Below are positions 1,863 to 17,620 of a stretch of 64,000 nucleotides of DNA, piece by piece. Position 1 is the first letter of the stretch; each line of letters opens with the position of its first letter. Below the pieces are notes generated by a model. It was not told the origin of the DNA, did not search any database, and saw only the letters and a program-made list of their open reading frames with translations. Both the position numbers and the translations under genes were made by a program. This DNA comes from Massilibacillus massiliensis. Its GTDB lineage: Bacteria; Bacillota; Negativicutes; FLKF01. Location: NCBI RefSeq assembly GCF_900086705.1, contig NZ_LT575483.1, positions 3,229,516-3,293,515 on the forward strand, given 5' to 3'.

Positions 1863-3299
1863 ATGAATGGATATGTCTGGGTCATTGTTTTATATGCGTT
1901 GCTGCTCATTGGCGTGGGTACTGTTATGCGAAAGCGTGTAAAGAATTCAGATGATTTTTTTGTAGGCGGAAGAAAATTTGGAACAGTGCTATTATTTATT
2001 ACTTTGGTTGCACCCAACATTGGTGCCGGTTCTACGGTTGGGGTTGCAGGACTTGGGTTTCAAGCTGGAATCTCGGCGATTTGGTGGATTGTTGCTTCTG
2101 CGCTGGGAACGTTTATTTTAGCTCTTTTTGTTGGGCCGAAAATTTGGCGTTTGGCGAAAAAACATAATTTTTATACCTTAGGAGATTATCTTGAATATCG
2201 ATATAATCGTAATTTTCGCGGTTTGATCTCTTTATTAATGGCAATCGGGTCAATTGCTATTTTTGCCGGACAGCTCATGGGGATAGCTTGGATTCTATCC
2301 GTTGTAGCTGGTGTTTCAAAAACGGTAGGAATTTTAATTGGTGCTGTAGTCGTTGTCTTGTATTTTTGTGCCGGCGGCCTGGTTTCGGCAGCTTATGTCA
2401 ATAGTATCGAAGCGGTCGTAAAACTGATCGGTTTTTTTATCGCAGTACCTTTTGTTCTTCAATTTGTCGGGGGCTTCAGTGGATTAGAAGCAAAAGTTGC
2501 TGCCAATCTAAATGCCATGGAAACTGCACAATACTTTCAAATTGATGGTATGGGAATAACAACGATTCTTGGCTTTTTTTTAATGCTTACACCGTCTTTT
2601 TTCATATCACCGGCTTTAATCGGTAAAGTATATGGTGCAAAAAATGAAAAAACTGTTATTTATAGTACGATGCTCTGCGGCGTTGTCATGCTGCTCTTTG
2701 CGGTTATCCCTGTCTTACTAGGTATGGCGGCTTCAGTTGTAGTTCCCGATTTGGCAGAACGTGATTTAGCTTTACCGATTGTGATGAAAGAATGTATGCC
2801 TTTTTGGGCATCTGCACTTGCTTTGGCGGCGATATTTTCCGCAGAAATCAGTGCGGCAGATGCGGTGCTTTATATGATTACCTCATCTTTTACAAAAGAT
2901 TTGTATCAAACATTTATCAAACCAGATATTTCTGATGCGCAATTATTGAAAACAAGTCGGATTGTTACGGTCGTTACAGGGCTGATAGGCGTAGGCATGG
3001 CGATTATACTGCCGAATGTAATTACCGCATTATCGATTTTTTATGCTTTAATGTCAGTTTCGTTGACAGCACCATTATTATTTGGCTTATTTTCTAAAAG
3101 AGCGGATACCATGGCTGCATTTGCTTCGGCTATTGTTGGCATTGGTGTGACGATTGTTCTACAATTTTGGAATGCTGGAAAGGGTATATGGATTTTGAAT
3201 GCGCAGTCAACTGCGATTTTGATCACGATTTTTATGATGATTATCATGATGTATATGCATCCGGCAAAAATTAAAATACCGCCAAGCGACGTAGAATAG
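1863..3299 (+). CDS. Sodium:solute symporter (SSS family)
   Basis: 478-residue integral membrane protein with about 13 hydrophobic segments. The early DDFFVGGRKFGT motif after the first helix and the following GAGSTVGVAGLG segment are typical of SSS-family (PutP/PanF-like) Na+-coupled symporters. The middle of the protein has SAEISAADAVLYMITSSFTKDLY, the conserved TM8 region that precedes a cytoplasmic loop. The substrate cannot be read from sequence; candidates include amino acids, carboxylates or pantothenate. A good ribosome binding site (GGGAGGA) precedes ATG 1863. It appears monocistronic, with only a short weak hairpin (about 3311-3331) downstream. Confidence 0.88.
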   Translation: MNGYVWVIVLYALLLIGVGTVMRKRVKNSDDFFVGGRKFGTVLLFITLVAPNIGAGSTVGVAGLGFQAGISAIWWIVASALGTFILALFVGPKIWRLAKKHNFYTLGDYLEYRYNRNFRGLISLLMAIGSIAIFAGQLMGIAWILSVVAGVSKTVGILIGAVVVVLYFCAGGLVSAAYVNSIEAVVKLIGFFIAVPFVLQFVGGFSGLEAKVAANLNAMETAQYFQIDGMGITTILGFFLMLTPSFFISPALIGKVYGAKNEKTVIYSTMLCGVVMLLFAVIPVLLGMAASVVVPDLAERDLALPIVMKECMPFWASALALAAIFSAEISAADAVLYMITSSFTKDLYQTFIKPDISDAQLLKTSRIVTVVTGLIGVGMAIILPNVITALSIFYALMSVSLTAPLLFGLFSKRADTMAAFASAIVGIGVTIVLQFWNAGKGIWILNAQSTAILITIFMMIIMMYMHPAKIKIPPSDVE

Positions 3300-5787: not shown

Positions 5788-8164
5788 ACTTCGAATTGAC
5801 TCATAATGAAATGTAAATTTAGCTGGATTAATCAAATGTGCTATGTGCGGTGCACTTCGAATTGACTCATAATGAAATGTAAATGAAAAACTATGAGCAA
5901 AGTCATTAACATAATCAGTAAACTTCGAATTGACTCATAATGAAATGTAAATCTGCGCGTTATTTACCATGCTTTGGTAACTTCTTTACTTCGAATTGAC
6001 TCATAATGAAATGTAAATTCCCATGCTTTTATGTAATGACCGTTTATTTTATAAACTTCGAATTGACTCATAATGAAATGTAAATGTCTATTTGCATAGA
6101 TGTTAGCAATATTAATTGCTCACTTCGAATTGACTCATAATGAAATGTAAATGGCCTTACAGAAATATCTTTTGACGCGAGACTACCTACTTCGAATTGA
6201 CTCATAATGAAATGTAAATAACGAGTGTGGGTTAAAAGATGATGACAGTATTTGCAACTTCGAATTGACTCATAATGAAATGTAAATATCTGCTTTTTAT
6301 CTAATAAGGTACATAAACGTTTATAACTTCGAATTGACTCATAATGAAATGTAAATGCTTATCAAAATGTTACTGATATGGCTAACAAATTAGAACTTCG
6401 AATTGACTCATAATGAAATGTAAATATGGTAAAAAGTACAACTTTCACTGGTGAAGGCCAAACTTCGAATTGACTCATAATGAAATGTAAATGTAAACGG
6501 TACTGAAAGTACTTTTTGGTTGCTGAAAACTTCGAATTGACTCATAATGAAATGTAAATCTGCAAAAACATCAACCTCATGGGACATGCTAGGTACACTT
6601 CGAATTGACTCATAATGAAATGTAAATCAAGAAATGTTCTTGTCTACTTCGGCTGATATTGCACTTCGAATTGACTCATAATGAAATGTAAATCTGGCGA
6701 AGCTGATTTCGAAACATATTACAGTTTGAACTTCGAATTGACTCATAATGAAATGTAAATTTAAGACATTTAAATAATTCAAATTTTTCAGCAATACTTC
6801 GAATTGACTCATAATGAAATGTAAATGCGGTAAGGAGCTTGCTTTTTTTAGTGCTTCTCGTACTTCGAATTGACTCATAATGAAATGTAAATATGGCCAT
6901 TTCCCACATATCATGATAGCGATTTTTAACTTCGAATTGACTCATAATGAAATGTAAATTGAAGCTGTACACTTTTTCGGTTTTACTCATTTCACCACTT
7001 CGAATTGACTCATAATGAAATGTAAATAAAGGTCGATATGAGGACGAAGCAGGGGCAAAGGAAACTTCGAATTGACTCATAATGAAATGTAAATCTAAAA
7101 TTACATTTACGGTTTAGCCGTCGTGTTCCAACTTCGAATTGACTCATAATGAAATGTAAATTACCAGACGGTAATTTATCAAAAGCGAAATCTTTCAACT
7201 TCGAATTGACTCATAATGAAATGTAAATTGATGGACGGTGGGTTGCCGCAATTTTTGGGATATGACTTCGAATTGACTCATAATGAAATGTAAATGCTGA
7301 ATTTTTTACTAATTCAGCAAACATTGTAAGAACTTCGAATTGACTCATAATGAAATGTAAATTAATGATTTAGGAATGTCTACACAAAATAGAGACTTAC
7401 TTCGAATTGACTCATAATGAAATGTAAATGATGAAGATGGATATAGATTTTTTGGTAGTTCCAGCACTTCGAATTGACTCATAATGAAATGTAAATCTTT
7501 TAGAAACGAAGATTATGCTTTAGGTTTTTTGGACTTCGAATTGACTCATAATGAAATGTAAATTCGGATCTATGTAAGCAGTGAATTCAATTGGCACCGA
7601 CTTCGAATTGACTCATAATGAAATGTAAATTAACACCGACATCATTCGATGTAACCACACGTGCGAACTTCGAATTGACTCATAATGAAATGTAAATTGA
7701 TTTTATTGACTTTTCGCCATACATATGCTATAACTTCGAATTGACTCATAATGAAATGTAAATGAAGAAGCGAACAATGAAGCTGTTAAGGAAAAGCATA
7801 CTTCGAATTGACTCATAATGAAATGTAAATAAAGAAGTTTTTGAGATCACAAAACAGCTAGAGAATACTTCGAATTGACTCATAATGAAATGTAAATATT
7901 GAGCTTCTATGCTTGTATCGTGTTGCTTGTCAGAACTTCGAATTGACTCATAATGAAATGTAAATGCGGTTGGCCAAGTTGGCTCTGTAGATGCTGTTGT
8001 GACTTCGAATTGACTCATAATGAAATGTAAATTGGGAAGATAGCGGGACTTGTACACTGTATCTAGAACTTCGAATTGGCTCATAATGAAATGTAAATAG
8101 ATGTACATTAGATTCTGGTGGCAATGTTACTACACTCCGAATCGGCTCATAATGAAATGTAAAT
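5788..8164 (+). CRISPR. CRISPR array, 36 repeats and 35 spacers, no cas genes in window
   Basis: A 31-base repeat beginning ACTTCGAATT and ending ATGTAAAT occurs 36 times, starting at 5788, 5854, 5922, 5988 and so on to 8068 and 8134, with a period of 66-69. Spacers are therefore 35-38 bases and all appear different. Repeats 1-34 look identical. Repeat 35 (8068) has one change (A to G at position 12), and repeat 36 (8134) has that change plus two more (T to C at positions 4 and 10). This marks the right side as the old, leader-distal end and gives + orientation. The repeat length and its 3' end, giving an 8-base handle ATGTAAAT, resemble subtype I-B repeats, but with no Cas protein in the window the type is unproven. 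Apparent minus-strand ORFs made of repeating TFHYESIRS/LHFIMSQFEV peptides are only translations of the array. Confidence 0.98.
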
Positions 8165-8271
8165 TTTTCAGTTGTCTTTTTTACATGTCTAAAAAGAGAG
8201 GATGCCTGATCGTTTTAATATGGATTCATATTGATTGGGGATTCTCACCTCCACATAGAAAAGACCTCCTA

Positions 8272-8293
8272 AAATTTGAATTTTGGAGGTTCA
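8272..8293 (+). terminator. Hairpin after the CRISPR array
   Basis: GACCTCCTAAAATT is followed by AATTTTGGAGGTTC, forming a hairpin with one bulged T. It may end array transcription. It lacks a clear T-run. Confidence 0.45.
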
Positions 8294-8339
8294 TCGAGTA
8301 TAATTTAATTGGTTGACAGCCGATGACTGACCTAGGGTT

Positions 8340-8384
8340 AATCGTCAGACCGTTTGGAAAGCGAGAGCTCCGAACGGTCGTCTT
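8340..8384 (+). terminator. GC-rich hairpin before the first peptide module
   Basis: CAGACCGTTTGGA pairs with TCCGAACGGTCGTC across a short loop. It lies directly upstream of the promoter at 8389 and would insulate the module from read-through of the array. Confidence 0.45.
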
Positions 8385-8388
8385 ATTA

Positions 8389-8417
8389 TTGTCGAAAAAA
8401 GAAAAATTTGTTATAAT
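8389..8417 (+). promoter_or_regulatory. Promoter of peptide module 1
   Basis: TTGTCG (8389-8394), a 17-base spacer and TATAAT (8412-8417). The conserved module starts at 8425, seven bases after the -10, as expected for a transcription start. Confidence 0.75.
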
Positions 8418-8495
8418 TTGTGCAGGTGCTACGATAACGATAGGCGGTTAGTTCCCATTTGCGATCCACTACGGTGGAGGAATGGGGGTGATGCC

Positions 8496-8561
8496 ATGAA
8501 TGATACAAACTTAACATTGTTATTTTTTATCATCCTGGTTTTTGCCATAAAAAAAGATTAA
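8496..8561 (+). CDS. 21-residue hydrophobic peptide, candidate type I toxin (copy 1)
   Basis: The peptide starts MNDTNLTLLFF and ends VFAIKKD: a short polar N-terminus, one 12-13-residue hydrophobic core and a Lys-Lys-Asp tail. That fits a single-span membrane peptide. The second copy, at 9778-9843, encodes exactly the same 21 residues, although two codons differ (AAC/AAT for Asn and GTT/GTC for Val), which indicates selection on the peptide. GGGGGTG lies seven bases before ATG 8496, and a tiny overlapping ATG-CCA-TGA at 8491 may couple translation. It does not resemble Hok, Fst/Ldr, TxpA/BsrG, Ibs, TisB or the known C. difficile toxins by eye. Toxicity is inferred, not shown. Confidence 0.7.
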   Translation: MNDTNLTLLFFIILVFAIKKD

Positions 8562-8640
8562 CCGCCCTGCTACCAACAATGCGATTAATCTTTTAAACGT
8601 ATAAACTTGGGAGCTAACCGTTTATCGGTAGCACCTTTTA
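8549..8640 (-). ncRNA. Antisense RNA of module 1 (candidate antitoxin)
   Basis: On the minus strand a promoter (TTGACA, 17 bases, TATGAT; 8676 to 8648) starts transcription near 8640. A perfect-looking intrinsic terminator ends it: the hairpin 8593-8553 is followed by seven T residues (complement of A 8549-8555). The product, about 92 bases, is fully complementary to the 3' part of the peptide message, including the last codons. The A-run that encodes Ile-Lys-Lys in the peptide is thus also the T-run of the antisense terminator. Confidence 0.7.
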
Positions 8641-8647
8641 TATGTTT

Positions 8648-8676
8648 ATCATAAAACATATAAATTATACTGTCAA
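8648..8676 (-). promoter_or_regulatory. Antisense promoter of module 1
   Basis: Read on the minus strand: TTGACA (8676-8671), a 17-base spacer and TATGAT (8653-8648). The same two hexamers with the same spacing recur at 9956-9928, although the spacer sequences differ. Confidence 0.75.
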
Positions 8677-8814
8677 TAACTGCGTGAATTTTTTACTCTG
8701 CCAGATAAACGAGTTTTGATAAGATCATCAGCTTTGCGCTACTTAGACTCTCGCATAATAAAACAAAAAAACATAATTTTTACGATGAAAAATCATGTTT
8801 TGGTTTAGTTTTGC
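8677..8814. other. Intergenic AT-rich stretch with one inverted repeat
   Basis: Contains an AT-rich hairpin, AAACATAATTTTTA...AAAAATCATGTTT (about 8768-8801), which could terminate transcription in either direction. No ORF is seen. Confidence 0.4.
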
Positions 8815-8847
8815 TTGCAATCGCTAAGAAATGTAATATAATTAGGA

Positions 8848-9107
8848 ATAGGTGGAAATTAAAAAAGTCGCCGTGTCCTAAGAGTGCGGGAACACTTTTA
8901 GGCACGAGCAGGTGAGTTAGCACCTACACGTAACAGCTAGCTGTCTACGACGACAATTTATTATACCGTGCTTTTTCCTTGAAAACAAGGTAGGAGTGCG
9001 TTTTGTGTGATAAATTGAAGTTTTTGGCAGAAGGGCTTAGCGTCGGCATGCAATGAGAAACGGAGCAAGCGCATGTGTAGGTAGAATAACCTCGCATGCG
9101 CTTTTTT
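8848..9107 (+). ncRNA. Candidate structured RNA, about 260 bases, between the two peptide modules
   Basis: A promoter (TTGCAA 8815-8820, 16 bases, TATAAT 8837-8842) precedes a stretch with no ORF but several stable helices. These are a long hairpin CGTG-t-CCTAAGAGTG / CACTTTTAGG-CACG (8872-8906), AGGTG/CACCT (8910-8925), the palindrome ACAGCTAGCTGT (8933-8944), an enclosing GTCG/CGAC (8867-8870 with 8951-8954) and CCTTG/CAAGG near 8978-8991. It ends in a good terminator at 9067-9107. I could not match it to 6S, SRP, tmRNA, RNase P or a riboswitch class I know. Confidence 0.55.
9067..9107 (+). terminator. Terminator of the structured RNA
   Basis: AAGCGCATG (9067-9075) pairs with CATGCGCTT (9095-9103), followed by a T-run. 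Confidence 0.85.
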
Positions 9108-9351
9108 AATTTCCCCTGAAACAAACTGTAGGTTGGTTTCTTCTAGCTGTGGTGTCAGCAGGTAGGAGAAGCCATCTGCAGGATGAGGATGGGGGAATAT
9201 AAATTGGGATCAGTCAACAGTAGCTTTAAACTGCGCCTAAGTATGTACACTGGTATGTGGCGAGACGGCATTCTCGCCGCATGCAACGGAAAAAATTCGC
9301 TCTATTTACAAGGAATGAAACATAGTTTCCCAAACAATAGGGTATTTATAA
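9108..9351 (+). other. Leader-like region before the 103-residue protein, several hairpins
   Basis: No ORF. Visible helices are GAAACAAAC/GTTGGTTTC (about 9118-9140), GCTG/CAGC inside CTTCT/GGAGAAG (about 9140-9171), CATC/GATG near 9173-9186, and GGCGAGA/TCTCGCC with ATG-flanks near 9257-9283. TTTCCCC at the left and GGGGGAA near 9191 could close a domain. It may be a long structured 5' leader or a separate RNA. Confidence 0.4.
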
Positions 9352-9663
9352 ATGTATAAAACCTATAGAACGGCGAAAGATACGATTATCGCGGCGGAAG
9401 TTGAGCACGAGGACATTACGCTGCAATTGCTCGCTGATTTAGATGGCAAAGAATATTTACTTCTTAAACGGCAAGATGAAACGACGATTTATCATCTGCC
9501 ATTGTCTGAGAAGATCAGTGAAATCGTGGACGATGTTTTATTTGAGGAATATAGAGCGATTACCTATGCAAAATTGGATCAGGAACTATTGGAACAGGGC
9601 ATTAAACCAAAAAGCTTGGAATCTTTAAAATTGTATTGGAAATATTTCGATCAAAAAGGTTAA
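9352..9663 (+). CDS. Uncharacterised 103-residue protein
   Basis: I do not recognise this protein. It is acidic and soluble-looking. The first half (about residues 10-55) reads as short beta strands (TIIAAEVEHEDITLQLLADL, EYLLLKRQDETTIYHLPL), and the second half is helical (KISEIVDDVLFEEYRAITYAK). It has no membrane segment and no Cys pairs. ATG 9352 follows an in-frame stop directly, so the start is firm, although the ribosome site (GGGTAT) is poor. Its stop is only a few bases before the promoter of peptide module 2, and a long structured stretch precedes it. Whether it belongs functionally to the two flanking peptide modules is unknown. Confidence 0.6.
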   Translation: MYKTYRTAKDTIIAAEVEHEDITLQLLADLDGKEYLLLKRQDETTIYHLPLSEKISEIVDDVLFEEYRAITYAKLDQELLEQGIKPKSLESLKLYWKYFDQKG

Positions 9664-9669
9664 TTGTCC

Positions 9670-9699
9670 TTGCTGTATTTTGACAACTTTTGCTATAAT
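9670..9699 (+). promoter_or_regulatory. Promoter of peptide module 2
   Basis: TTGCTG (9670-9675), an 18-base spacer and TATAAT (9694-9699). The conserved module begins at 9707, again seven bases after the -10. Confidence 0.7.
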
Positions 9700-9777
9700 G
9701 CAAATAGGTGCTACGATAACGATAGGCGGTTAGTTCCCATTCGCAATCCACTACGGTGGAGGAATGGGGGTGATGCC

Positions 9778-9843
9778 ATGAATGATACAAATTTAACATT
9801 GTTATTTTTTATCATCCTGGTCTTTGCCATAAAAAAAGATTAA
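9778..9843 (+). CDS. 21-residue hydrophobic peptide, candidate type I toxin (copy 2)
   Basis: Encodes the same peptide as 8496-8561, with two synonymous codon differences. It has the same GGGGGTG ribosome site inside a hairpin. See copy 1 for the composition and the limits of the toxin inference. Confidence 0.7.
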   Translation: MNDTNLTLLFFIILVFAIKKD

Positions 9844-9920
9844 CCGCCCTGCTCACAACAATGCGGTTAATCTAGTTTAATCACTTTTGGGAGCTAACCG
9901 TTTATCAGTAGCACCTTTTA
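9831..9920 (-). ncRNA. Antisense RNA of module 2 (candidate antitoxin)
   Basis: Starts near 9920 from the promoter at 9956-9928. It ends at the perfect 11-base-pair hairpin 9873-9837, followed by seven T residues on the minus strand (A-run 9831-9837). About 90 bases, fully complementary to the end of the peptide message. Confidence 0.7.
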
Positions 9921-9927
9921 TATTATT

Positions 9928-9956
9928 ATCATAATCGTAAAATTTCATACTGTCAA
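9928..9956 (-). promoter_or_regulatory. Antisense promoter of module 2
   Basis: Minus strand TTGACA (9956-9951), a 17-base spacer and TATGAT (9933-9928), the same layout as in module 1. Confidence 0.75.
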
Positions 9957-9960
9957 GTTA

Positions 9961-9994
9961 TAAGCGATTGGATTTATTTCCGGTCGCTTATTTT
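9961..9994 (+). terminator. Hairpin TAAGCGA/TCGCTTA with T-run
   Basis: Arms at 9961-9967 and 9984-9990 followed by TTTT. It lies just outside module 2. The following 300 bases up to the PTS regulator hold no ORF I would support. Confidence 0.55.
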
Positions 9995-10300
9995 AGATTG
10001 GAATGTAGTGAAAATTAGCAGAACTAAATGTTTTGCATAGATTTATTCTTCTTGGTAAGAAATAAATCGTCAGTGTATTTTTTATTTTGTTATTAGAAAA
10101 CTTGCAGAAATGAACAACTTGAAATCTTTCTGGAGAAAGGTTTGTTTTTTTGGCTTTATGTGGTATTCTTGGTAATACAATATGGATTAAATTGTGAATG
10201 AAATGTGTCATAATTATAGAGAGAAACAGTTTTCTTATCCTATTTATGACGTAGATTGTAAGCAGAAAAATATGAATTGAGGTAGCTTGAAGGCAGAGGA

Positions 10301-10341
10301 TTCAAGTACTTGAAGAGGAACTTCCACAGACTGTGGAAGTT
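10301..10341. promoter_or_regulatory. Two adjacent palindromes upstream of the PTS regulator
   Basis: TTCAAGTACTTGAA (10301-10314) is a perfect 14-base palindrome. Five bases on, AACTTCCACAG (10319-10329) and CTGTGGAAGTT (10331-10341) form a perfect 11-1-11 inverted repeat. A TATAAT follows at about 10371-10376. These are likely operators; which protein binds them is not known. Confidence 0.5.
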
Positions 10342-10404
10342 AAATGTCTAGGTAGGCAGTTATGAGACTGTTATAATGAAATTGTAGCAAGCGAGGTGTA
10401 AGTA

Positions 10405-12354
10405 TTGGAGGTTCAAAACAAGCGGGTTTTAAAAATACTGGAGTTATTTGATATCAATAAGAAAGTACTGGATAGTGCCAGTATAGCTGCTTTGATTGGT
10501 GTGAGTTCGCGTACGATTCGTAATGACATCAAAGAGTGTAATGCCTTAATTCAAAAGTATGGCGCCGAAATTCAGGCAGAACCTGGTGTCGGATATATGT
10601 TGAAAGTTTATGATGAGAAGCGTTATGAGGCGTTTAAAGACACCCAGAGCAGTGAAGGCAGAAAAGAGTACTGGCTAAAAAATCATATCATTCCTTCGGA
10701 CCATAATGATAGGATTTCCTTTATTATTGCTGAGCTTTTGCTAAATTCTTTACATGGAAGAGTCGTTACAGAGTCAGAATTAGCAGATGAACTTTTTATT
10801 AGTCTTTCGACGTTAAAAAAGTATATGAAGGATATAAAAAAAAGTTTACGGCGTTTTGGTGTGGAAATTACTGCGGATCGTATGAATGGTATTCGGATGC
10901 AGGGTGATGAAGCACAAATTCGTTATTGTATTTCAGAATACATTTTTAATAGTAACGAGTTGGTGGATTTAGCACAAAATGAATTTTACGCTAAATTATT
11001 TTCCCCAGAAGAAATTGAGAAGGTAAAACAAATTATTTTGGATGTTATCTTAAATTATAATATTCATTTAACGGATGTTGCTTTCAAAAATTTACTTGTA
11101 CATGTGATTATTACCATGAAACGAGCTGATGGGAAAAATACGACGGAGTACAGTGAAGAAGAAATGACCGCTTTAGAGAAGTCTGTATATTTTTCGGCAG
11201 CAAAAGAAATTATAGATATTATCTTAAAGCAGTTAAATGTGGATATTACGAATGAAGTGTATTATTTGACACAACATTTTGTATCAAGTAAAAAGTTGCT
11301 GGAAACGGAAGAAAATACGGAAGTTACACAGGAGTACAAAACTTTAGTGGACAGTATTTTATCAAAGATCCGCAATGACATTGGGATTGATTTATCCGGC
11401 GATGAAGAGTTAATTTCTGGATTGATGATTCATTTGGGTGCTGCAGTAAATCGGCTGAAATTTAATATGAATATTCGTAATGAGATTTTAGTTCCGATTA
11501 AAAAGAATTATCCGCTGGCTTTTGAGATGGCGGTGATTGCCAGTAAGGTACTGACCAATCAGGAAAAACTCAGAACAAATGAAAATGAGATGGGTTTTTT
11601 GGCAATTCATTTTGGGGCGGCATTGGAACGTCGGAAAAGTAATACCAGTACGGCAATGACAGCAATTATTGCTTGTGGAACAGGTCTTTCAACAGCGATG
11701 TTTGTAAAAAGTAAGTTGCAGAGAAAATTTGGCAAGCAATTGCAAATCTTGAAGGTAAGTCCGCTTTATGAAATAACAGAGGAAACGATCCAAAGTGTTG
11801 ATTTCGTTTTTACTACTGTACCGATTCGAGGAATTCATTCAGAAAAGATTATTCAAGTAGAGCCCATTTTAACTGAAGATGATTTAGGCAAAATCGAAAT
11901 CATTATTAATGGAAATTCAGCAGAATCGCAGGAACAGTTTTTTAGAGAAGATTTATTCTTTCCAAAATTAAAGGCAAATTCTAAAATCGATGTTTTAGAA
12001 AAAATGACGGATCTTATGGTAAAGAAAGGGTATATCGATCAGGCAGGAAAGAAATCGGTGTTTGCCAGAGAACAGATGGCATCGACTGAATTAGGCAGTT
12101 TGATTGCAATTCCACATGCTTTAGAGAGCCACGGTGAAGAGGCCGTGATTGCTGTAGCAGTTTTGGAAAAACCGATTTTATGGGATAAAGAAAAAGTACA
12201 AGTGGTATTTTTGTTAAGTATTCCAAAGAGTAAATGTCGTGTTTGGGAGCCCGTTTTTGAGCGGTTATATCGTTATTTTATCAGTGATTTTGGCGTGAAC
12301 ACATTAATAAAAAATGCCAAGTTTGAGGTATTAATGGAGAAACTTGGTGAGTAG
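10405..12354 (+). CDS. BglG-family PRD-domain transcriptional activator with EIIB and EIIA domains
   Basis: 649-residue PTS-controlled regulator. Domains in order: N-terminal HTH (about 8-60, SIAALIGVSSRTIRNDI), second HTH of Mga/HTH_DeoR type (about 95-160), PRD1 (about 190-290, with LLVHVIITMKRA) and PRD2 (about 300-400, with FLAIHFGAALERR). Then come a gat/mtl-type EIIB domain with phosphorylatable Cys424 (IIACGTGLSTAMF) and a C-terminal EIIA domain with His571 (AIPHALESHG). Such proteins activate the adjacent PTS operon when phosphorylation signals that the substrate is present. The start is TTG 10405 with GAGGTG nine bases upstream. The PTS genes follow directly, so it probably controls its own operon, possibly through the palindromes at 10301-10341. 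Confidence 0.92.
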   Translation: MEVQNKRVLKILELFDINKKVLDSASIAALIGVSSRTIRNDIKECNALIQKYGAEIQAEPGVGYMLKVYDEKRYEAFKDTQSSEGRKEYWLKNHIIPSDHNDRISFIIAELLLNSLHGRVVTESELADELFISLSTLKKYMKDIKKSLRRFGVEITADRMNGIRMQGDEAQIRYCISEYIFNSNELVDLAQNEFYAKLFSPEEIEKVKQIILDVILNYNIHLTDVAFKNLLVHVIITMKRADGKNTTEYSEEEMTALEKSVYFSAAKEIIDIILKQLNVDITNEVYYLTQHFVSSKKLLETEENTEVTQEYKTLVDSILSKIRNDIGIDLSGDEELISGLMIHLGAAVNRLKFNMNIRNEILVPIKKNYPLAFEMAVIASKVLTNQEKLRTNENEMGFLAIHFGAALERRKSNTSTAMTAIIACGTGLSTAMFVKSKLQRKFGKQLQILKVSPLYEITEETIQSVDFVFTTVPIRGIHSEKIIQVEPILTEDDLGKIEIIINGNSAESQEQFFREDLFFPKLKANSKIDVLEKMTDLMVKKGYIDQAGKKSVFAREQMASTELGSLIAIPHALESHGEEAVIAVAVLEKPILWDKEKVQVVFLLSIPKSKCRVWEPVFERLYRYFISDFGVNTLIKNAKFEVLMEKLGE

Positions 12355-17432: not shown

Positions 17433-17620
17433 TTGTTTTCGTTCTCCCGGCCTTTTCCGGAAAAATACGTTCCGAAGGATGAAAAATGATCGGCTTACGT
17501 TAAGAAATTCGCTTGTCTGAACGAAGTGAGTTTGTGAATTTTAGTAAGCCGATCATTTTTCAAGTATTTTGGAGGTTGGAGGCCTAGCCTTTTCGTTCTT
17601 TTGGGCAATGCCAAAAGGAC
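17433..17620. repeat. Dispersed structured repeat family 2, copy 1
   Basis: Close match to 26549-26734. It contains a perfect 18-base-pair stem, GAAAAATGATCGGCTTAC (17481-17498) with GTAAGCCGATCATTTTTC (17544-17561), and ends with CTTTTGG-gcaatg-CCAAAAG (about 17598-17617). Differences between the copies within the long stem are compensatory. No ORF. The remaining 170 bases up to the next gene hold nothing recognisable beyond AT-rich sequence. Confidence 0.8.

Follow-up and report, generated by a model that had tools for sequence, protein, structure and literature searches.

A candidate branch of convergent type I toxin-antitoxin modules in Massilibacillus massiliensis with a predicted switch at the ends of the toxin mRNA

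In a Massilibacillus massiliensis contig (NZ_LT575483.1, positions 3,229,516 to 3,293,515 of the forward strand; this stretch of 64,000 nucleotides (nt) is the window), two similar modules, named W1 and W2, raise the question of what they encode and how their expression might be controlled. An initial annotation, made from the sequence alone, had described them as two copies of a candidate new type I toxin-antitoxin system. Our comparison makes it very likely that they belong to a convergent type I toxin-antitoxin family, with RNAs and toxicity that are predicted. A short mRNA would encode a 21-residue membrane peptide, and an antisense RNA encoded in cis, some 90 nt long and transcribed from a promoter just beyond the 3′ end of the mRNA, would overlap the 3′ part of the mRNA. 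The best explanation of the whole, which we consider probable, is a type I locus with a switch formed by the 3′ arm of the mRNA; both RNAs, the toxicity, the repression and the polarity of the switch are predictions.

Two convergent modules and their promoters

The modules lie where the initial annotation had placed them, at 8425-8640 and 9707-9920. They are covered by two pairs of direct repeats (8407-8591/9689-9873 with 92% identity and 8607-8676/9887-9956 with 83%), and both are recognised by R1, a covariance model built from 14 copies. The ends of the module are inverted with respect to each other (GGTGCTAC/GTAGCACC). Their features are as follows.

8389-8417, + strand: W1 sense promoter, with -35 TTGTCG (8389-8394), extended -10 TGTTATAAT and -10 hexamer at 8412-8417
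8425-8640, + strand: predicted W1 toxin mRNA, starting at 8425 and ending at a U-tract near 8640 (R1, 223 bits)
8425-8456, + strand: W1 5′ arm, GGTGCTAC...GGCGGTTAGTTCCC, complementary to the 3′ arm at 8609-8635
8452-8459, + strand: W1 anti-Shine-Dalgarno TTCCCATT, predicted to pair locally with the Shine-Dalgarno or at long distance with the 3′ end
8484-8492, + strand: W1 Shine-Dalgarno GGGGGTGAT, its GGGGG invariant in the 14-sequence R1 alignment
8496-8561, + strand: W1 toxin-like peptide MNDTNLTLLFFIILVFAIKKD, 21 residues
8552-8594, both strands: W1 bidirectional terminator hairpin (-11.8 kcal/mol, z -7.2), with the A-run 8549-8555 as antisense U-tract
8609-8640, + strand: W1 distal sense terminator (z -2.8), with its hairpin at 8609-8636 and the 3′ arm at 8609-8635
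8545-8636, - strand: predicted W1 antisense (antitoxin) RNA, about 90 nt (-30.5 kcal/mol, z -4.4)
8648-8676, - strand: W1 antisense promoter TTGACA-17-TATGAT, from the promoter scan and host-copy conservation
9670-9699, + strand: W2 sense promoter, with a weak -35 TTGCTG, extended -10 TGCTATAAT and hexamer at 9694-9699
9707-9920, + strand: predicted W2 toxin mRNA (R1, 219 bits)
9778-9843, + strand: W2 toxin-like peptide, a protein identical to that of W1, with two synonymous changes in its gene
9827-9916, - strand: predicted W2 antisense RNA (-28.1 kcal/mol, z -3.0)
9928-9956, - strand: W2 antisense promoter TTGACA-17-TATGAT, from the promoter scan

As had been claimed, the peptide is the same in W1 and W2, and the two differing sites of its genes are both synonymous. 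The antisense terminator falls at the end of the peptide gene. The A-run at 8549-8555 provides both the Lys-Lys codons of the peptide tail and the antisense U-tract of the hairpin. The initial annotation had overlooked that this hairpin points in both directions, as well as the second sense terminator at 8609-8640, the complementary ends of the RNA and the 15 places that the family occupies in the host genome.

The promoters were assigned with different degrees of certainty. The antisense promoter TTGACA-17-TATGAT was retrieved in both modules by the promoter scan, as originally described. The sense promoter proposed 7 nt before the 5′ end stood only in part: a -10 TATAAT ends 7 nt upstream of GGTGCTAC in W1 and W2, each time within a TGnTATAAT, but the -35 matches at four of six positions in W1 and at only three of six in W2, where the scan did not list it. 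The W2 sense promoter is thus at best an extended -10. Since scanning 8000-10500 revealed no excess of promoters (9 found for 8.9 expected), the case for them is based on position and conservation. Among 102 copies of the family, an antisense promoter with at least 10 of 12 matches was present just outside the 3′ end in 69, compared to 1% of shuffles, and a sense promoter with at least 9 of 12 matches in 77, compared to 6% of shuffles.

Identity was then compared between the eight host copies that belong to the subfamily of the window. The sense -10 was fully conserved (1.00) next to a spacer at 0.62, and the antisense hexamers reached 0.96 and 1.00. The arms and terminator stems (0.92-0.98) and the open reading frame (ORF; 0.84) were also retained, while the measured spacers fell to 0.62-0.71. 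The most diverged parts were the linker (0.42), the tip of the leader hairpin (0.51) and the terminator loop (0.60). Divergence of loop, tip and linker with conserved arms and stems is what would be expected if the antitoxins stay specific. Of the 102 copies, 91 have a U-rich 3′ end, a feature seen in 16% of control windows, although these positions belong to the model that retrieved the copies. The terminator-stem pattern matched 80 of the 102 copies, the remaining 22 being unscored; 55 of these 80 carry an A-run of at least 4 ahead of the stem, and only 32 a T-run of at least 4 after the bidirectional hairpin.

Conservation of the peptide and of the paired mRNA ends

Under the stricter rules, a Shine-Dalgarno-led hydrophobic ORF was detected on the sense strand of 91 of the 102 copies. 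By the same rules, the opposite strand carried such an ORF in 6 of 102 copies, as did 3 of 202 flanks and 2.6% of shuffles, so that the excess is not due to chance. Regions taken by model score behaved likewise, with a Shine-Dalgarno-led ORF containing a hydrophobic core in 57 of 60. The ratio of nonsynonymous to synonymous change (pN/pS) was 0.30 for the 33 distinct ORFs of the window subfamily, whose pattern fitted 36 of the 102 copies, compared to 0.57 in the +1 and 3.34 in the +2 control frame. Judged from these alignments, the peptide is under selection, and the conservation of its frame that the initial annotation expected in homologues is present. Other copies bearing the same RNA chassis encode very different peptides (for example MTLYDFLSLVFLVAICIIAIKS, MGTMELYVLLILATGYIIAIKKN and MALEFAMALLAFGIACFSLGYTLGKDLNKQK). 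At one host locus (L013:3189-3731), two modules with peptides MNETNVTLLLFIVLVVFLQKK and MGTLELYVLLILATGYIIAIKKR face each other within 550 nt.

We then assessed whether the two ends of the mRNA belong together. In 85 representatives, the duplex between the first and last 45 nt had a mean energy of -41.4 kcal/mol with its own partner, -30.8 kcal/mol with swapped 3′ ends (permutation z -21.9) and -18.6 kcal/mol with shuffled ones. The own 3′ partner ranked best in 20 of the 85 and among the top three in 37. In the 14-sequence alignment, eight pairs had changed on both sides compared to 3.6 in shuffles, and there were 19 double-changed cells against 4.7; 93% of cells were paired, a proportion that dropped to 50% or less when partners were slid by one to three columns. 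An additional helix between the Shine-Dalgarno region and the ORF had no double change in this alignment. In a copy of genome G042, both ends have been exchanged together (GGCATGACGC with GCGTCATGCC). The copies were retrieved with a model that holds the 5′-3′ pairing, which biases them toward those that keep it. With this bias in mind, sequence comparison indicates that the toxin mRNA has ends that pair with each other and change in concert.

Inverted ends such as GGTGCTAC/GTAGCACC could also be the terminal repeats of a mobile element resembling a miniature inverted-repeat transposable element, serving transposition and carrying the peptide incidentally. The many copies and the transposase genes adjoining some of them in the host (L013, L015) fit such an element. 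We nevertheless hold it to be very improbable, given that selection acts on the peptide, that the promoters lie outside the repeats at a fixed distance despite diverging spacers, and that the ends vary between copies yet co-vary inside each copy.

Computed opening of the ribosome site

In order to evaluate the effect of the paired ends on translation, the cost of opening the stretch from the Shine-Dalgarno to the start codon was computed by equilibrium folding; as the sequences are related and the energies are those of equilibrium, p-values overstate independence. Over 91 copies, the full-length RNA required 11.2 kcal/mol on average, compared to 14.3 kcal/mol when 32 nt were removed from the 3′ end, and the full-length cost was the higher one in 12 copies. 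Withholding everything from the end of the ORF, as in the form covered by the antisense RNA, gave a mean of 13.7 kcal/mol; this form was harder to open than the full RNA in 73 of the 91 copies, in 57 of them by at least 2 kcal/mol. In a stricter set of 56 representatives, the full RNA (11.4 kcal/mol) was compared with RNAs bearing a shuffled 3′ end (14.2 kcal/mol) and was easier to open in 50 of 56. Progressive trimming of the 3′ end in this set raised the mean cost from 11.4 to 11.9 (-20 nt) and 14.3 kcal/mol (-32 nt), and none of the nine lengths lowered it. When the RNA was grown in silico, the cost in W1 passed from 11.9 to 14.2 and then fell to 9.0 kcal/mol on appearance of the 3′ arm (nt 180-195 of 216), and in W2 from 13.7 to 17.2 and then to 8.8 kcal/mol.

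These calculations suggest a switch. Its basis can be read from the sequence, where the C-run of the leader can pair either with the Shine-Dalgarno or with the G-run of the 3′ end. Once emerged, the 3′ arm would zip with the 5′ end, strip off the C-rich strand and lower the cost of opening the ribosome site. The antisense RNA, by occupying the 3′ strand, would keep the leader closed and leave a duplex open to cutting. Upon loss of the antisense RNA, the completed mRNA would turn on and the peptide would act on the membrane. According to the folding model, the window copies show this effect strongly, and the family as a whole shows it in part.

Several results weigh against this scheme. The antisense-covered form was not harder to open in 18 of the 91 copies, and was easier by at least 2 kcal/mol in 9. 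The earliest nascent RNA (to 6 nt past the start codon) cost on average 11.5 kcal/mol, close to the 11.2 kcal/mol of the full RNA, even if the two differ in W1 (11.9 against 9.0 kcal/mol) and W2 (13.7 against 8.8 kcal/mol). Removing the first 45 nt gave 10.8 kcal/mol. Even in the open state, the cost remains near 9 kcal/mol for the window copies, the family mean being 11. Across the family, the fraction of the anti-Shine-Dalgarno that pairs with the 3′ end in the full RNA averages only 0.36, with values ranging from 0.92-1.00 in the window copies to 0.00 in host copy B. An upstream partner of the Shine-Dalgarno is retained with a probability of 0.53. The W1 leader hairpin taken alone folded no better than shuffles (z -1.2). 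Finally, the bidirectional hairpin may end sense transcripts ahead of the 3′ arm.

Long-distance 5′-3′ pairing is also a feature of aapA/IsoA of Helicobacter and of hok/Sok, and transient hairpins mask the Shine-Dalgarno of aapA3, as described in PMC6733600. A type I locus with the polarity of these systems was our initial expectation: the paired mRNA would be a silent store, 3′ trimming would activate it and the antisense RNA would catch it. The very stable 5′-3′ pairing, as stated in the same paper for aapA1, aapA3 and hok, and the high opening cost that persists in the full RNA (mean 11.2 kcal/mol) are in favour of this polarity. It was weakened because the computed cost of opening the ribosome site rose with truncation, as in the trimming series above, and we now regard it as unlikely. 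We give roughly even chances to the opposite polarity, in which the 5′-3′ pairing is predicted to ease opening of the ribosome site.

For a switch of this type, bsrG/SR4, described below, and timP/TimR offer precedents. According to PMC11228461, timP becomes active through a structural rearrangement, which its antitoxin reverses; to that extent it resembles our proposal of a silent nascent mRNA, activated by internal refolding that the antitoxin undoes. As described in the same paper, timP/TimR relies on a pseudoknot and a leader-binding small RNA, in contrast to the 5′-3′ helix and 3′-overlapping antisense RNA of the window. If the proposed polarity is true, the modules would be a compact answer to the problem of a toxin mRNA escaping translation during its synthesis, without RNase processing.

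Relatives, distribution and neighbouring features

The modules were compared with known families. The window RNA had no match at gathering score in Rfam, searched at gathering and permissive thresholds, an outcome that the initial annotation required. No match at curated cut-off was found for the window peptide and seven relatives in Pfam, NCBIfam or PHROGs. Extending the searches to more family peptides gave none reaching the curated cut-off in Pfam (26 distinct peptides), only matches below the curated cut-offs in NCBIfam (25 distinct peptides), and a best E of 0.005, the rest being weaker, in PHROGs (sets of 8 and 10). Matches such as PsbL, BcsF and TatA were rejected as identities for being below the curated cut-offs. 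The family is unlisted in Rfam, Pfam, NCBIfam and PHROGs, T1TAdb lying outside this comparison, and none of the titles among the literature matches listed dealt with type I systems in Negativicutes.

A link to known toxins came from Hol_Tox (PF16935), a family present in 50 of 150 genomes of the class. The window peptide did not match it, nor did anything in the host genome; the peptides of loci L159 (E 0.0018) and L181 (E 0.01) gave matches below the cut-off. Out of 30 Hol_Tox loci, four matched R1 over the ORF (E 1e-11 to 3e-6) and a fifth, L197, reached 0.003; the other 25 had no R1 match over the ORF at 0.01. The claim of a new family is therefore limited by the four of 30 Hol_Tox loci that share the chassis. 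The window family is better described as a new branch within type I systems, with a chassis common to some Hol_Tox loci, than as a family apart from all known toxins. In seven further Hol_Tox loci (L199, L201, L204, L205, L213, L215 and L220), the flanks pair end to end by eye, without controls, in sequences unlike R1 (in L201, AGAGCTATTAACGTGAGTTAGG with CCTAACGCC...CGTTAATAGCTCT); a second chassis family among Hol_Tox loci seems likely from this predicted pairing.

Type I toxins are typically recognised by a combination of features: a small membrane peptide, an antisense RNA gene, a masked ribosome site, several paralogues and carriage by phages. The peptide might instead be a regulatory or structural small membrane protein, not toxic and merely tuned by the antisense RNA. 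Its highly variable sequences, and a toxicity that is so far only predicted, leave room for such a role. The family is predicted to show this combination, however, and four chassis-bearing loci encode Pfam Hol_Tox members, which makes a non-toxic peptide improbable.

Among characterised systems, bsrG/SR4 and txpA/RatA of Bacillus subtilis, which belong to Hol_Tox, resemble the window in that the antitoxin pairs at the 3′ end of an mRNA encoding a hydrophobic peptide. They differ in that the window peptide has 21 residues and fails the Hol_Tox model, and in that the two RNAs of the window start with near-identical sequence and the mRNA ends pair. According to PMC6562991, SR4 bound at the bsrG 3′ end extends the masking of the Shine-Dalgarno; the paper also suggests that bsrG/bsrE loci have swapped toxin genes within a common RNA frame. 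The par system of pAD1 (Fst, RNA I/RNA II) shares with the window convergent RNAs and a common bidirectional terminator. PMC8309996 and PMC8167048 list as Fst/Ldr features a PXXXG peptide motif and direct repeats at both RNA 5′ ends; the ends of the window modules are inverted rather than direct repeats, and their peptide contains no proline, hence no PXXXG.

The distribution of the family was examined with R1; its E-values are rough, and weak matches were sampled, not all read. The initial annotation had predicted many copies with a conserved peptide and paired promoters, and these were found both in the host and in genomes of the class. In the host genome, blastn with the module gave 15 matches, some of them fragments, and R1 gave 18, of which three are opposite-strand readings, leaving 15 places. 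One of them (3686459) lacks the 3′ half, a transposase-like gene starting at that point, and in another (3782501) the arms barely pair (-5.1 kcal/mol). Two weak matches elsewhere in the window (2310-2454, E 0.005; 17466-17573, E 0.007) were taken as chance. R1 matched 163 of 380 genomes of the class Negativicutes, in 53 of 102 genera, and 105 of the 234 better assemblies. In a draw from the whole phylum it matched 31 of 398 genomes, 24 of them outside the class. Five of these outside loci were fetched (L180, L181, L183, L184 and L186) and all match R1 end to end with a properly placed short ORF, that of L180 being not very hydrophobic.

In a search of the collection, 32 named contigs were matched, eight of which bear what we take to be Negativicutes names. 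All but one of the eight, L110, match R1, and carriers identified by name include Propionispira and Anaerovibrio lipolyticus. A Propionispira arboris record (L101) contains the L042 locus of genome G163 letter for letter. The other 24 contigs (Vibrio and others) were considered chance pattern matches. Nine viral contigs carried the 3′ pattern and eight of them match R1 end to end, four sharing one sequence. Among the genes of these contigs are those for a terminase and a portal protein (L190, L193), an integrase (L188), and replication proteins and a methyltransferase (L189). A viral scan with the peptide-start pattern yielded three contigs, none matching R1. By blastn against phage and plasmid records, the window module had no match; of two viral-contig modules, one had none and the other a single weak partial match. 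Viral contig L189 carries, just downstream of its complete module (11119-11408, - strand), an additional 3′ half comprising the terminator, 3′ arm and antisense promoter region without a peptide gene, an arrangement that looks like a spare antitoxin gene.

Type I systems have been described from three phyla only, many in less than 5% of species, according to the introduction of a 2025 paper (PMC12390103). Searches for them usually start from the properties of toxins already known; searching by RNA chassis instead reached the 163 class genomes mentioned above, and R1 provides a means of finding further such loci. We tentatively propose, at somewhat less than even confidence, that the modules share one self-timing RNA chassis, with long-distance pairing as the ON switch and an antitoxin that steals the 3′ strand. 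This chassis would have spread through Negativicutes, some other Bacillota and phages as a socket for unrelated toxic peptides, the RNA being the conserved unit.

W1 is located beside an array of clustered regularly interspaced short palindromic repeats (CRISPR) at about 5790-8168 of the window, with a period of about 67 nt and degenerate at its W1-proximal end. Its promoter starts about 220 nt past the last repeat, which could evoke a CRISPR-linked toxin guard similar to CreTA. This appears extremely improbable. None of the loci fetched around the other host copies (L009-L015, L081) contains the exact repeat, no array-like repeat family was present among those listed for L009-L015 (for L009, the 5 largest of 7), and the antitoxin predicted here is an antisense RNA with full complementarity. 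Outside the window, among the loci fetched, the repeat occurs only in L016 (host, about 1665 kb), where it forms a second array accompanied by a promoter fragment and no module. This fragment (L016:3203-3252, - strand) is a solitary sense promoter with GGTGTTAC, the rest of the module being missing, and adjoins ORFs that we take to be tail-collar-like and Fic/Doc-like. Five window proteins near the array were scanned and included no cas protein (MFS, SSF, a PTS-type regulator and two unmatched).

Between the two modules, the window also contains an unannotated structured RNA (8800-9115, with the RNA at about 8849-9105, + strand; -98.5 kcal/mol, z -6.0), which had no Rfam match at gathering score. 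A search of 60 genomes, the host being excluded, detected it in 17, and a single genome had as many as 15 matches when fragments are counted. The host carries five copies, three of them within about 2 kb of toxin modules; among 20 further loci fetched, two of them host copies, only L243 contains an R1 module. Downstream of the structured RNA, the window encodes a 103-residue protein (9352-9663) that has no Pfam match. Look-alikes of this protein, recognised by eye, lie about 150-245 nt downstream of the structured RNA in L013, L230, L231, L232, L234, L238, L239, L240 and L243, and other copies precede different small ORFs. The structured RNA may be the leader of the 103-residue protein.

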